From positions 1 to 64,000 of the forward strand of contig VXRG01000100.1 in NCBI GenBank assembly GCA_009838625.1: a stretch of DNA of 64,000 bases, written 5' to 3'. Under the pieces are notes generated by a model, which saw nothing but the letters and a program-made list of their open reading frames with translations, did not search any database and was not told where the DNA came from. The DNA is from Caldilineaceae bacterium SB0664_bin_27. Its GTDB lineage: Bacteria; Chloroflexota; Anaerolineae; Caldilineales; Caldilineaceae. The stretch's first letter is position 1. Each line of letters starts with the position of its first letter. A program made the position numbers and the translations under genes. This document shows positions 52,617 through 56,319 of the stretch, piece after piece.

Positions 52617-53504
52617 CTACGCCGTCACCTTCCAATTGCTGCTCTCCGGATTCGAAAGCGGGAACCCTTCGCCTACCAGCTCCTCGCCGTCGCCCACTGT
52701 GAAGCCAGGAATAAGTACGTGTTCGGGCGATTGGTCCAACTTTGTCCTCACACCCTCGGCCATGAAGATCATGACATGGGCGCGGCGCTGCCGGTTGGTC
52801 TCGTTGGCCGGGGTGGAATGAAAGTTGAGACAGTGGTGGAACATGCACTCACCGGCCTTCAATTCGACCGGCTTTCCAATGTCTGCCGGTTCATAGGCCA
52901 TCTTCTGCCGGTCTGTCTCTTCAATTTCGCGCCCTTCCGCCTCGGCCTCAGCCCGCGCGGCCAGTTCGGCCGCATAGGCCTCAAGGCCGAACCGTGGATC
53001 CCTGTGACTCCCCGGCACTACGTGCATGCAGCCGTTGTCGGGCGTCGCGTCATCAAGAGCCAGCCAGCAGGTTACGATTCGGGGTTCCCTCAGGGGCCAC
53101 AGATAGAAGTCCTGATGAAAGTGAAAGTGACGGTTCTCCTCCGGCGGCTTGGAGATGATCTGATCGTGCCACAGCCGCACACGCGGCGTGTCCAATAGAG
53201 CGCAGGCCACACCGGAGATCACCGGGTGGTGGAGTAGGCGCTCATACAAGGGCTCCCTTTTGAACATATTCACATATTGAACAATATGCCGCGGCTGATA
53301 CGCCTCCGCGTCGACCGCCTTTGGCGCTCCTCGACGGTGCCCGTACTGGAACTCTATTTCCGATTCATCGCCGCCGGCGTCTTCGATGGCGATTACACGG
53401 TCCAAGCCCGCCCGCAACGCCTCCACCTCGGTCATGTCCAGAACGCGGCCGTACCGCAGGTAGCCGTTCTCGTTGAAAAAGTCAATCTGTTTTTGGGTGA
53501 TCAT
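52617..53504 (-). CDS. phytanoyl-CoA dioxygenase family protein (canonical HxD)
   Basis: 295 residues from ATG 53504 (GAGGA at good distance; the frame extends 15 bases further). The Fe/2-oxoglutarate facial triad is complete: HQD with His130 and Asp132 in HFHQDFYL, and a distal His near 229 in CLNFHSTPANETNRQRR with the Arg that binds 2-oxoglutarate. VPGSHRDP precedes the distal part. The family hydroxylates varied substrates; several members in such genomes lack known targets. Located between the antitoxin gene and menH. Confidence 0.85.
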   Translation of the reverse strand: MITQKQIDFFNENGYLRYGRVLDMTEVEALRAGLDRVIAIEDAGGDESEIEFQYGHRRGAPKAVDAEAYQPRHIVQYVNMFKREPLYERLLHHPVISGVACALLDTPRVRLWHDQIISKPPEENRHFHFHQDFYLWPLREPRIVTCWLALDDATPDNGCMHVVPGSHRDPRFGLEAYAAELAARAEAEAEGREIEETDRQKMAYEPADIGKPVELKAGECMFHHCLNFHSTPANETNRQRRAHVMIFMAEGVRTKLDQSPEHVLIPGFTVGDGEELVGEGFPLSNPESSNWKVTA

Positions 53505-53515
53505 GGCTGATTTCC

Positions 53516-54382
53516 TCATTGTGAATTTGGAATGAGCTCTCTTTCAATGGCCGGAGAAACAGATCGATAATGTTCAATGGCCCATTTCTTGGCTTCCGTC
53601 AAAGTGGAGAATGAATGCCGTGTCTCGTCCAGTCGGGAGAAAATTGAGACTAATCTATGCCTCTCCAGCACTTGGCCTTCAGCAACGAGCATCCCTTCTA
53701 CAAACAGCCGGAAGTTCTCGCGGTCTTTGTAGGAGATCCAGGCAAACGAAGACCTGAGGTCAGAACTGTCCGGAGTGTGGGCCGTGCTTCGCCTGGAGTC
53801 GAACAAGCTGATCGCCCAACTTTTCGCTGCCCGCATAGTGCGAAACGAGCGCGTCGTCCCTTCCGGCCGGGAGGCAACTGTAAACAGGTCCCGTCTCTCA
53901 GAGACCCTACCTTTAGCAATGGGCGACCCATCGACAAACAACTGGAAATTCGTGCGGTCTTCGGAGGAGGCCCAGGTATAGTAGGCCCTGGAGGTAGAAT
54001 CGCCAGGCGGATCCTCAAGTGCGTGGTGAATGTCAAAGTGCTCGACAGCCCAGTTCTTCGCGTCCCGCATCGTCTGAAATACATGCGTCTTTCTGTCCAG
54101 TTCAGACGTTACAGTGAACAGGTCGCGATTTACTGAAACGTGACCTGATGCAACCAGCATCTTGTCCACAATCAGTTGGAAATCCGTGCGGTTGTCAGCA
54201 TTGATCCAGGAATAGGACGCCCTGACATGCGGCATCATTTCACGGGCTGGGCTTGCGTGGCGAAACCAGTCGGCATCCAGCTCGTAGGCGTCCGGGTCGG
54301 CCTCTATACCGGCCTGGATGGCAGCCTCTTCGCCTTTCTGGGCTGCAATTTCGTCGAATGTGCTTTTGCTATCCCTGTTCAT
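53516..54382 (-). CDS. BrnA-like antitoxin N-terminus fused to three tandem 78-residue repeats
   Basis: 288 residues. Residues 1-52 resemble BrnA: YELDADWFRHASPAREMMPH, the segment that in BrnA binds the toxin. In BrnA, a ribbon-helix-helix DNA-binding part normally follows. Here it is replaced by three repeats with exact 78-residue period: W59/137/215 in (S/T/A)W, then (D/E)RTNFQL-type, RDLFTV-type, and WA(V/I)xxF at 111/189/267. No family match is known to me. The start overlaps the brnT stop by 14 bases, with AGAGGTG before it. It is on the same promoter as brnT. Confidence 0.7.
   Translation of the reverse strand: MNRDSKSTFDEIAAQKGEEAAIQAGIEADPDAYELDADWFRHASPAREMMPHVRASYSWINADNRTDFQLIVDKMLVASGHVSVNRDLFTVTSELDRKTHVFQTMRDAKNWAVEHFDIHHALEDPPGDSTSRAYYTWASSEDRTNFQLFVDGSPIAKGRVSERRDLFTVASRPEGTTRSFRTMRAAKSWAISLFDSRRSTAHTPDSSDLRSSFAWISYKDRENFRLFVEGMLVAEGQVLERHRLVSIFSRLDETRHSFSTLTEAKKWAIEHYRSVSPAIERELIPNSQ
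53564..54214 (-). repeat. three-copy protein-level repeat, 78-residue period
   Basis: Copies cover approximately 54214-54032, 53980-53798 and 53746-53564 (antitoxin residues 57-117, 135-195 and 213-273). Shared features are a Trp near the start, Asp/Glu-Arg, Phe-x-Leu, a charged turn, a beta-like (L)FTVxS strand, a T(M/L)xxAKxWA end, and a Phe or Tyr. DNA identity appears lower than protein identity, so the duplication is not recent. Confidence 0.75.
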
Positions 54383-54635
54383 ATCGTTTCACCTCTCGCG
54401 GATTGGCCTTGCGCAAGCTTATGATTCGCCTACTATCGCCGCGCTCGGTAAACACGATCACGTGGAGCCGCTCGCCTATGTATCCGATAGCGACAAATCG
54501 AGGTTCATCGTGGCGGAGATCATCTGCCAAGGATGCCGTAGTCCAGTCAAATCTATTGACGGCGCTGAAGTCAACTCTATGTTTTTCCAGGTTTTCGCGG
54601 CGCTTATTTTCATCCCTTTCATACTTCTCTTCCAT
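54369..54635 (-). CDS. brnT: BrnT-family ribonuclease toxin
   Basis: 88 residues with the BrnT pattern: an early RDENKRRENLEKHRVDF, then RFVAIGYIGERLHVIVFTERG and RRIISLRKANPREVKRY. BrnT is a RelE-like ribonuclease in type II BrnT-BrnA modules, where the toxin gene usually precedes the antitoxin gene, as here. All the characteristic blocks are present. It overlaps the antitoxin start by 14 bases. Expected transcription start lies at the ATG itself, suggesting a leaderless mRNA. Confidence 0.85.
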   Translation of the reverse strand: MEEKYERDENKRRENLEKHRVDFSAVNRFDWTTASLADDLRHDEPRFVAIGYIGERLHVIVFTERGDSRRIISLRKANPREVKRYEQG

Positions 54636-54642
54636 TGTCTAT

Positions 54643-54670
54643 ATCATAGCGGCAATTTAACTCGCGTCAA
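54643..54670 (-). promoter_or_regulatory. sigma-70 promoter of brnT
   Basis: On the minus strand, TTGACG (54670-54665), a 16-base spacer and TATGAT (54648-54643). The brnT ATG at 54635 begins seven bases after the -10 element, so transcription likely starts at or just before the start codon. This position gives little room for a ribosome-binding site. It is separate from the men operon. Confidence 0.6.
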
Positions 54671-54774
54671 GGAGTTGGGTGAACTTGCCTCGTGCCTCCT
54701 GTGAACTTTCCAGCTGAGTCTGCAGGGAAGACGACACGGATGGCAGCGTTGTCTTCCGGCTGCCTGAACCCTCC

Positions 54775-56319
54775 CTAGCCCTCAAACATTGTCCTGACCG
54801 CCCGCCGAGCGATCTTGCCCGAAGCCGTTTCCGGCAGAGCATCGACGAAGCGGATATGTTTGGCTGAAGGCTGCTTATAGCCGGCCAGGCGCCCCCGGCT
54901 GAACGCCAGGAGCTCGTCGCGGGTCACGGTCTTGCCTGCATGTAGCTGCACTGCCGCCGCACAGCGCTGTCCCCATTCGGCGTCAGGCAGCCCTACCACG
55001 CAGACGTCGGCCACGGCAGGATGTTCCCGTAATACTGTCTCCACTTCGACCGGGTAGATGTTCTCTCCGCCGCTGACAATCAGGTCCGCCCGCCGTTGCA
55101 GCACAAACAGATCGCCGTCGCTATCAACGCGGCCCATGTCGCCGGTGCGCAACCAGCCTCCCTGCAGAGCCGCCGCGGTCGCAGTGGGGTTACGGTAGTA
55201 GGCCGTCGTCACCTGCGGTCCGCGCACCAGTATCTCTCCAACCTCCCCCTGATGGAGTGGACGCCCATCGGAATCCGCAATGCGCAGCTCCGTAAACAGC
55301 AGGGGCCGCCCTACTGTGCCCGGCTTTCTCCGAACATCGGCAGGCAGAGCTGTCGCCGCCTGGGTAGCGGCCTCTGTCAAGCCGTACGTAGGCGCAACCG
55401 GGACACCTTCTTCAAGGGCGGTATGCAGGAGTTCGGGCGAGGCAGCCGCGCCGCCAATCAGAACCGTTCGCAAACTCTGCGGCCATTCCGTCGCGGGGGA
55501 ACTGTGCAGCAGCCGGTGGAGTAGCGTAGGCACCAGCGAAGTCTGCGTTACCCTGTTCTCGCGCAGGCAGCTCTGAAACTCTTCCAGCTGAAAACGACGT
55601 TGAAGGACCACCGCGGTACCGTAAAGGCAGGAGCGGAACACAACGGCCAATCCGCTCACATGATACAGGGGCAGGCAGGAGAGCCAGCGGTCTTCCGTGC
55701 CCACACCCAGACGGAATGCAGAGGCGGTAGCACTCCAAAAATGATTGGCAAAACTGAGCTGAACGCCTTTGGGAGTCCCCGTCGAGCCGGAGGTGAAAAC
55801 AATCGACTGAAGCTGCCCTTCTTCCTGTTGGTGCGGCACTCGACGCTCGCTGCCCGCGCCTCTCCCGATCAAATGCTCGTCGCCGCCTAGCTTTGCCAGA
55901 GAAACGGTCTGCATAGGCTCGGACAGGAGCGTTTGAACATCTGGTGCTGGCCCCGGCCATTGCCCCGAGCTTTCGTCGCCCTTACCGACCGGTTCGTCGT
56001 CGACCACCAGCAGCGCCGGCTCGACCAGGTTAAGCTGCCTTCCAATCTCTGCGGCAGTCAGTCGCGTGTTCAAGGGCACGAAAACAGCGTCAATACGAGC
56101 GACAGCATGGATGAGAGCGACCGCCTCCAGGCTGTTTTCCAACCGTGCTGCAACCTTGTCGCCGGACTGTATTCCCTGCGCCGTGAGACCGGCGGCTTGC
56201 CCAGCGGCCATTCGGTCCAGTTCAGCGTAGCTCACCGACCGCCCCTCAAATACAACGGCTGTCTTTCCGGGCGTAGCCAGCGCTCGCCAGTACAACCAAT
56301 CTTTCTTCACTGAAAGCAC
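54775..56319 (-). CDS. menE: o-succinylbenzoate-CoA ligase
   Basis: 514 residues of the ANL superfamily: FTSGSTGTPKGVQLS (ATP/AMP loop), LPLYHVSGLAVVF, YGLTEAATQ, TGDMGRVDSDGD and the C-terminal lysine in ETASGKIARRAV. It adds CoA to o-succinylbenzoate in menaquinone synthesis, as expected beside menB/menD/menF. Broad acyl-CoA ligase is the only alternative, and context makes it unlikely. Confidence 0.9.
   Translation of the reverse strand: MLSVKKDWLYWRALATPGKTAVVFEGRSVSYAELDRMAAGQAAGLTAQGIQSGDKVAARLENSLEAVALIHAVARIDAVFVPLNTRLTAAEIGRQLNLVEPALLVVDDEPVGKGDESSGQWPGPAPDVQTLLSEPMQTVSLAKLGGDEHLIGRGAGSERRVPHQQEEGQLQSIVFTSGSTGTPKGVQLSFANHFWSATASAFRLGVGTEDRWLSCLPLYHVSGLAVVFRSCLYGTAVVLQRRFQLEEFQSCLRENRVTQTSLVPTLLHRLLHSSPATEWPQSLRTVLIGGAAASPELLHTALEEGVPVAPTYGLTEAATQAATALPADVRRKPGTVGRPLLFTELRIADSDGRPLHQGEVGEILVRGPQVTTAYYRNPTATAAALQGGWLRTGDMGRVDSDGDLFVLQRRADLIVSGGENIYPVEVETVLREHPAVADVCVVGLPDAEWGQRCAAAVQLHAGKTVTRDELLAFSRGRLAGYKQPSAKHIRFVDALPETASGKIARRAVRTMFEG

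Follow-up and report, generated by a model that had tools for sequence, protein, structure and literature searches.

We have found that a brnT gene in Caldilineaceae bacterium SB0664_bin_27 is followed by a gene for a 288-residue partner that begins like a BrnA antitoxin and continues, where the ribbon-helix-helix (RHH) half would be expected, with three tandem repeats. We give about an even chance to the following reading: the two genes form a BrnT/BrnA-like type II toxin-antitoxin pair whose antitoxin keeps its toxin-binding N-terminus and has had its RHH half replaced by repeats that probably mediate protein interactions. Type II antitoxins are usually described as having a toxin-binding part and a DNA-binding part, and whether the second part is needed is an open question for which the partner described here may offer a natural test.

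Results

A toxin-first cassette with its own predicted promoter

The pair lies on the minus strand of the window, by which we mean the whole stretch of DNA that was analysed (64,000 nucleotides, positions 1 to 64,000 of VXRG01000100.1, our contig C98, from a genome of 5.35 Mb in 188 contigs). The features of the locus are as follows.

54643..54670, minus strand: promoter, -35 TTGACG, 16-nt spacer, -10 TATGAT (scan and alignment of four carrier loci)
54369..54635, minus strand: brnT, BrnT-family toxin (predicted RNase), 88 aa (PF04365, E 1.2e-23)
53516..54382, minus strand: partner, presumed antitoxin, 288 aa (ORF list; homologues in three more genomes)
54224..54382, minus strand: partner residues 1-53, BrnA-like N-terminal segment, pI 4.4, presumed to bind BrnT (alignment, pI)
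54032..54223, minus strand: repeat unit 1, residues 54-117 (repeat analysis; AF2 model, pLDDT 91)
53798..53989, minus strand: repeat unit 2, residues 132-195 (repeat analysis)
53564..53755, minus strand: repeat unit 3, residues 210-273 (repeat analysis)
53520..54774, minus strand: inserted cassette, approximate extent, from the ligase stop to the PhyH start (tblastn, 16 genus loci)
54775..56319, minus strand: flanking AMP-binding gene (acyl-CoA ligase, menE-like; PF00501, E 1.4e-81)
52617..53519, minus strand: flanking PhyH-family dioxygenase gene (PF05721, E 3.1e-35; orthologues in 16 of 17 genus genomes)

The toxin gene comes first, with the start codon of the partner lying inside the end of brnT (14-nt overlap), and the longest PhyH frame starts inside the stop of the partner (4-nt overlap). 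An earlier note on this DNA, made from the sequence alone, had credited the pair with its own promoter, and this is borne out: the site at 54670-54643 agrees with the consensus at 10 of 12 positions, ends 7 nt upstream of the brnT ATG and is kept across the four aligned carrier loci, with a weaker -35 element in one of them (G016). Four promoter-like sites were found in the 1701 bases scanned on both strands, against 0.7 expected. Judged from the sequence, the brnT mRNA would be leaderless, and brnT and the partner would share one transcript. The neighbours near the pair are metabolic or membrane genes, and no defence gene was found among the five window proteins scanned with Pfam.

The same cassette is present at the same site in three more genomes of this Caldilineaceae genus (the metagenome assemblies OX638330.1, here G016; OY282381.1, G004; VXMH01000023.1, G002), which rules out an assembly artefact, the case that the earlier note had named as one that would defeat its idea. 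The repeat protein is full length in three of the four carriers, and in the fourth, G002, a gap of 10 N conceals part of the repeats. The genus sample comprised 17 genomes, one of which (G010) has no PhyH match and was excluded from the count; at the 16 loci counted, the ligase-like gene and the PhyH gene are direct neighbours in 12, separated by a few tens of bases, and enclose brnT and the repeat gene in four.

The toxin had been called a clear BrnT, and it is one, scoring 83.7 bits against PF04365 (cut-off 34.5) over profile positions 2-77 of 77; there was no NCBIfam match. Its Lys-His pair aligns to the KH of the solved BrnT-like chains 7vd7_A (E 1e-4) and 3u97_A (E 0.021), and arginines are present within the stretch aligned to these chains. 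PMC13284704 gives K16, H17 and R72 as important residues of B. abortus BrnT. We regard the window protein as a BrnT-family toxin with the Lys-His pair kept and with predicted RNase activity.

A BrnA-like N-terminus in the partner

The first 53 residues of the partner align at 72-92% with three repeat-type relatives and at 38-49% with four other BrnA-like proteins of the genus, in agreement with the earlier description of about 50 BrnA-like residues. Compared with ten places of RHH type (one cut short; among the nine full proteins, two were assigned by Pfam BrnA and the other seven by eye from the alignment), the partner shows matches that begin at residue 4-7 (E 4e-10 to 5e-14), with an identity of 43-54% in nine and of 31% in the tenth, from G009, over a longer stretch that contains stops. 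Against Pfam BrnA (cut-off 26.1), two RHH-type relatives from the genus with this N-terminus reach 34.0 and 81.2 bits (E 4e-8 and 7.4e-23). Because the Pfam match starts at residues 31-33 of these two proteins, the shared segment corresponds to the start of the curated BrnA family together with about 30 residues before it. The window partner itself has no Pfam BrnA (PF14384) match at E<=1, no NCBIfam match and no RHH, as the earlier note had said of the RHH. The N-terminal segment has a pI of 4.1-4.4 in three carriers, and in the full-length AF2 model it appears as low-confidence helices with block means of 40-54. A search for a solved relative of an RHH-type partner, made for the toxin-binding part, gave none under E 0.17.

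Searching 46 family genomes with a profile built from residues 1-53 and their relatives gave 24 places, spread over 16 genomes that all belong to the genus of the window. Read by frame, these are four repeat-type partners, nine RHH-type partners, one RHH-type partner cut short (G015), one place that contains stops, one short partner adjoining an open BrnT-like frame (G016), seven short partners of another line that consist of the N-terminus only, and one P63C fusion of this N-only line beside an intact BrnT (G013). At the places of the N-only line, the P63C fusion included, the match covers only some 35 profile positions (E 2.5e-6 to 1.3e-4), and the kinship of these places is therefore weaker. 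The N-only partners (L056, L058, L060, L061, L062, L063 and L066) are about 67-73 aa long, the frame of L063 being open further upstream; an uninterrupted brnT frame was not seen in the 420 nt upstream of any of the seven, and remnants are found in several. The P63C fusion (L057 478-1650, minus strand; PF10546, E 1.5e-28; adjacent BrnT, 60.5 bits) is another replacement of the RHH half. By its sequence, the N-terminus of the partner is that of an ordinary BrnA and the C-terminal module alone differs, so that the new antitoxin class proposed in the earlier note is an overstatement.

A candidate new domain in three copies

The three units are spaced exactly 78 residues apart, as had been claimed, with 63 identities at offset 78 over residues 54-273, against a mean of 16 and a maximum of 24 in 2000 shuffles scored each at its best among 40 offsets. 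The units match one another in BLASTP at E 2e-23, 3e-20 and 2e-19 (43-52% identity), and the tryptophans listed earlier at 59, 137 and 215 and at 111, 189 and 267 are all in place, together with one more at 39. An AF2 model of window unit 1, made with 11 aligned units, has a pLDDT of 91 and a pTM of 0.75 and comprises five strands and a C-terminal helix; a full-length model of the partner, made with three sequences, has a pLDDT of 65 and a pTM of 0.37 and repeats the same elements three times over. Of the two kinds of support that the earlier note had looked for, homologues are thus at hand in three further genomes and a coherent fold of the repeat is predicted.

Searches of Pfam with the window protein and its units gave only matches below the cut-offs. 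Among them is Arm-DNA-bind_4 over partner residues 255-271 (E 0.0025; 17.8 bits, cut-off 22.3; E 0.079 in a relative), a weak likeness that keeps DNA binding by the repeats possible. FAM198, an animal protein family, scored 34.5 bits in the relative L034 (OY282381.1, G004), above its cut-off of 25, with a best stretch of 40 of 321 profile positions; it scored 18.6 bits in L033 and was absent in the window protein, and we set it aside as a chance likeness summed over the repeats. Nine PHROGs families were each matched by one of 11 units (best E 0.0077), and a sequence search of the PDB gave nothing under E 0.4.

The best Foldseek match of the unit in the PDB was to OspA variants at E 0.15, and among viral structure models the best was at E 0.022, with several small unnamed phage proteins at TMq 0.6-0.73; as far as the model goes, these viral matches reflect a common small fold and are uninformative on function. 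The likeness of the unit to YkuJ (2ffg; Z 5.6, rmsd 2.9, 59 aligned) is within the range of common arrangements. The full-length model had no match under E 0.001, with TMq under 0.2 among the 50 matches listed, and polo boxes appear only with this model, at TMq 0.12-0.17. Among the top-ranked fold-search matches listed, no plain DNA-binding family was present. The unit resembles no described family convincingly, and we propose it as a candidate new domain family with a confidently predicted fold.

The net charge of the unit runs from -2.4 to +3.6 over nine units from three genomes, with the sign flipping between units and between genomes; two of the three window units are basic (pI 10.4 and 9.4). 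Since the charge is not conserved, a conserved nucleic-acid surface is disfavoured.

The same domain on other proteins

A glyoxalase-like protein of G004 (L032 1-1794, minus strand; OY282381.1) carries one N-terminal copy of the unit (E 1.2e-5; profile comparison, P 4.6e-8), and in 13 other genomes it has orthologues whose alignment to it starts only at residue 101-107; the five of these that were read begin there. One N-terminal copy is likewise found on a nuclease-like protein of G005 (L136 5821-6936, minus strand; E 1.4e-4, P 1.4e-6), to which a relative in G009 (L120 227-1390, plus strand) is 51% identical over residues 1-365; the copy in G009 is claimed through this nuclease homologue, the profile having scored only 15 of the 29 candidates there and missed it. 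For a third nuclease-like relative, in G001, the match begins only at residue 104. The nuclease-like proteins of G005 and G009 stand beside an HTH gene and a conserved gene without assigned function. We call these proteins nuclease-like from a weak NucS_C match (E 0.015, under the cut-off), a D...ELK motif seen by eye, presumably a nuclease motif, and weak PADLOC PDC-S11 matches; the G009 protein has no Pfam match at E<=1.

A narrow repeat profile found the unit in one of 400 phylum genomes, its own, and in four of the 17 genus genomes. With a wider profile there were matches at E<=0.05 in seven of 396 class genomes (five genus members, two weak at 0.02 and 0.03), and with the widest there were matches at E<=0.01 in two of 400 phylum genomes, its own and one with a partial match at 0.004. 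We dismissed the partial match, which lies in a long frame whose motifs, read by eye, suggest a DNA polymerase with an inserted intein. The 288-aa protein has no match in phage records or plasmids; the nuclease-fused copy likewise gave nothing in phages, and in plasmids a single weak match (E 0.3). None of 60 pattern stretches in viral contigs was confirmed, and GTDB r220 contigs gave three loci, found with short peptide patterns, whose reach is limited to close relatives.

Occurrence on unrelated proteins is, at the level of sequence, the behaviour of an accessory interaction domain, and, as the domain can be found attached to enzymes and varies in surface charge, we favour protein binding over DNA binding.

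A site over the -10 box and the question of autoregulation

We compared the DNA upstream of brnT in ten RHH-type and four repeat-type loci. The site TTGTAGCTACAA, a motif drawn from the RHH loci themselves, several of which are near kin, is present at 10-12 of 12 positions in seven of the ten RHH-type loci (G001, G003, G009, G010, G014, G015 and G016); that of G014, a close kin of G009, was found later with the motif already fixed. The site lies at -19 to -8 before the brnT start in six loci and overlaps the likely -10 box (TACAAT in several). In G007, G011 and G012, where the brnT start is lost or rearranged, the best match within 420 nt is 7-9 of 12, which is the level of shuffles, and in the four repeat-type loci the best match is 7-8 of 12, no better than shuffles. 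As a palindrome the motif beats shuffles only in G010 and G016, two closely related loci, and G001 and G015 have a different inverted repeat further upstream. This pattern is suggestive of an RHH operator, and with it autorepression, having been lost together with the RHH. The earlier claim that autoregulation is changed gains indirect support, in that the -10 site of the RHH-type loci is absent from the repeat-type loci.

Antitoxins usually autoregulate, and it is conceivable, if unlikely, that the repeats form a DNA-binding module of a new kind, whose three beta-sheet domains bind direct repeats near the promoter and have assumed autorepression. The basic pI of two of the window units and the sub-cut-off likeness to Arm-DNA-bind_4 would fit such a role; the change of sign in net charge between units and genomes would not, nor would the presence of the same domain on a glyoxalase-like protein, and no perfect inverted repeat with arms of at least 6 was found in the 130 nt upstream of brnT at the four repeat-type loci.

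The state of the brnT genes

The brnT frame is open in three of the four carriers, where the product scores 83.7-85.0 bits in Pfam. In the fourth, G004 (L018 1190-1460), brnT is split over three frames beside an open repeat protein and an open PhyH gene, and a PF04365 search of the genus found only two BrnT profile fragments in that genome. Because this brnT is broken and its repeat protein is intact, the repeats may have a function other than toxin control; alternatively, the toxin may have been lost recently. Between the window and G002, dN/dS is 0.51 over the 88 codons of brnT, 0.28 over codons 1-152 of the partner and 0.09 in PhyH. In the window BrnT an arginine replaces the tryptophan of the EWD motif of its relatives, and another replaces the glycine of KHG, as it does in the G002 BrnT. 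From its sequence, the window toxin may also be in decay.

A full-profile open brnT frame is found at four of the ten RHH-type loci (G001, G010, G015 and G016). Next to the RHH-type partners of G009, G014, G012, G007 and G011, brnT is deleted, rearranged or fragmentary, and in G003 it is split. At L050 and L051 (G009 and G014) an internal deletion has put the brnT start in frame with the kept RHH-type partner; at L052 (G012) the open brnT frame upstream of the RHH-type partner opens like the start of a neighbouring amidohydrolase-like gene, as if rearranged. Either the partners persist beyond their toxins by chance or they may be retained for some function, such as protection from related BrnT toxins. 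The branching of a BrnT tree of 17 rows does not settle whether the repeat-type toxins arose from RHH-type ones.

These observations bear on the idea, improbable in our view, that the pair is decaying, the RHH having been lost, the repeats being a by-product held by drift or by an unrelated role, and BrnT disappearing. The broken brnT of G004, the dN/dS of brnT between the two nearest carriers, the W-to-R and G-to-R changes in the EWD...KHG motif of the window, the lost or split brnT genes of RHH-type loci, the N-only partners with no uninterrupted brnT frame seen upstream and the 12 of 16 genomes without the cassette all speak for it, and are countered by the intact brnT frame of three of the four carriers, the conserved promoter and a repeat protein that is full length in three of the four carriers, with a gap in the fourth, and under purifying selection.

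Evolution of the repeats and of the cassette

Compared position by position with G016, the window units share 69% (unit 1), 72% (unit 2) and 66% (unit 3) DNA identity with their counterparts, and from this positional orthology we conclude that three distinct units were probably ancestral. The units of G004 are 93-94% identical to one another in DNA (dN/dS 0.87-1.34, on very few changes), and unit 1 of G002 is 82% identical to window unit 2 against 71% to window unit 1; both point to units having been converted or re-amplified. Between carriers, the repeat regions have a dN/dS of 0.26, 0.22 and 0.17 in the three full pairs, all with dS saturated or nearly so, and the N-terminus one of 0.11, 0.09 and 0.06. 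The corresponding dN values are 0.34, 0.37 and 0.32 for the repeats against 0.16, 0.11 and 0.12 for the N-terminus. By these sequence estimates the repeat regions are under purifying selection between carriers.

A single insertion in an ancestor of the carriers only was rejected on the PhyH tree, in which the four carriers do not form a clade (AU p 4e-9 for such a clade). That tree has three cassette changes, at least two of which are forced by well-supported branches, and the carriers show no excess clustering on it (as low in 138 of 500 label shuffles). An ancestral insertion with clean losses and a repeated arrival at one site are both possible readings of these trees. For the closest pair, dS is 0.19 in brnT, 0.46 over codons 1-152 of the partner and 0.31 in PhyH, the values for distant pairs being high or saturated; because the divergence of the cassette broadly parallels that of PhyH, the data would favour vertical descent with repeated loss over recent transfer.

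The patchy presence of the cassette, the faster amino-acid change in the repeats, the homogenised units of G004 and the conversion in G002 might be expected if the repeats recognised a triggering phage protein or cellular signal and thereby exposed or released BrnT as an abortive-defence switch; the domain also occurs on the G005 nuclease-like protein, which is weakly like the PADLOC candidate PDC-S11 (E 5e-5). We nevertheless hold such a switch to be distinctly unlikely, in that neither BrnT nor the partner has a PADLOC match at E<=0.01, the toxin is broken in one carrier, selection is purifying overall, and the nearby genes (five window proteins) are metabolic or membrane genes and not defence genes. 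Phage records and viral contigs gave no relatives, and the defence or phage sensor suggested in the earlier note is, for this pair, possible and unsupported. Very unlikely is the broader proposal that the unit is an undescribed sensor domain of the genus carried by several effector-like proteins, its three copies here reading a trigger that is repetitive or multimeric, for instance a phage structure, and controlling the release of BrnT without transcriptional feedback.

Discussion

The explanation that we prefer is a BrnT/BrnA-kind pair with an exchanged C-terminal half. In such a pair, the acidic residues 1-53 would fold onto BrnT and silence the toxin, as in other type II pairs, and the N-terminus would thus be the part that binds and neutralises BrnT. 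In the antitoxin, three tandem domains of five strands plus a helix would have taken the place of the RHH half that binds DNA and dimerises, and these repeats may act as a multivalent protein-interaction or oligomerisation module that stands in for RHH dimerisation and perhaps tethers the complex to a cellular partner. With autorepression of the RHH type gone, it would follow that the near-consensus promoter drives the pair and that balance is kept through translational coupling, by way of the 14-nt overlap, and through sequestration of the toxin.

Within one genus, BrnA-like N-termini occur with an RHH, alone, fused to P63C or with three repeats, and the promoter site of the genus seems to track the presence of the RHH. 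Because the genus mixes partner types, and because the site apparently follows the RHH, the need for autorepression is directly testable in natural pairs.

Among the closest known systems is BrnT/BrnA of B. abortus (PF04365/PF14384), with which the window pair shares the toxin family, the toxin-first order, the overlapping genes and the BrnA-like N-terminus. It differs in that its partner has three 78-residue repeats instead of the RHH half, and the -10 site of the RHH-type loci of the genus is missing. RelS-RelI of M. tuberculosis (PMC13284704) is similar in having a toxin of BrnT-like fold, a toxin-first order and an antitoxin outside known families; in that paper, RelI figures as a putative HTH protein that lacks structural homologues. 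Antitoxins without a DNA-binding domain are also found in paaR-paaA-parE and omega-epsilon-zeta, where, according to PMC5086665, a third protein is the repressor, whereas the next gene in the window encodes a PhyH dioxygenase that is present at empty sites too. Finally, PMC11980606 reports that 31 of 33 BrnT-BrnA fusions have an RHH and two an HTH, which shows that BrnA can vary in its DNA-binding type; nevertheless, the replacement in those fusions still binds DNA, whereas that in the window partner is not recognisably DNA-binding, and its toxin and partner are encoded by separate genes.
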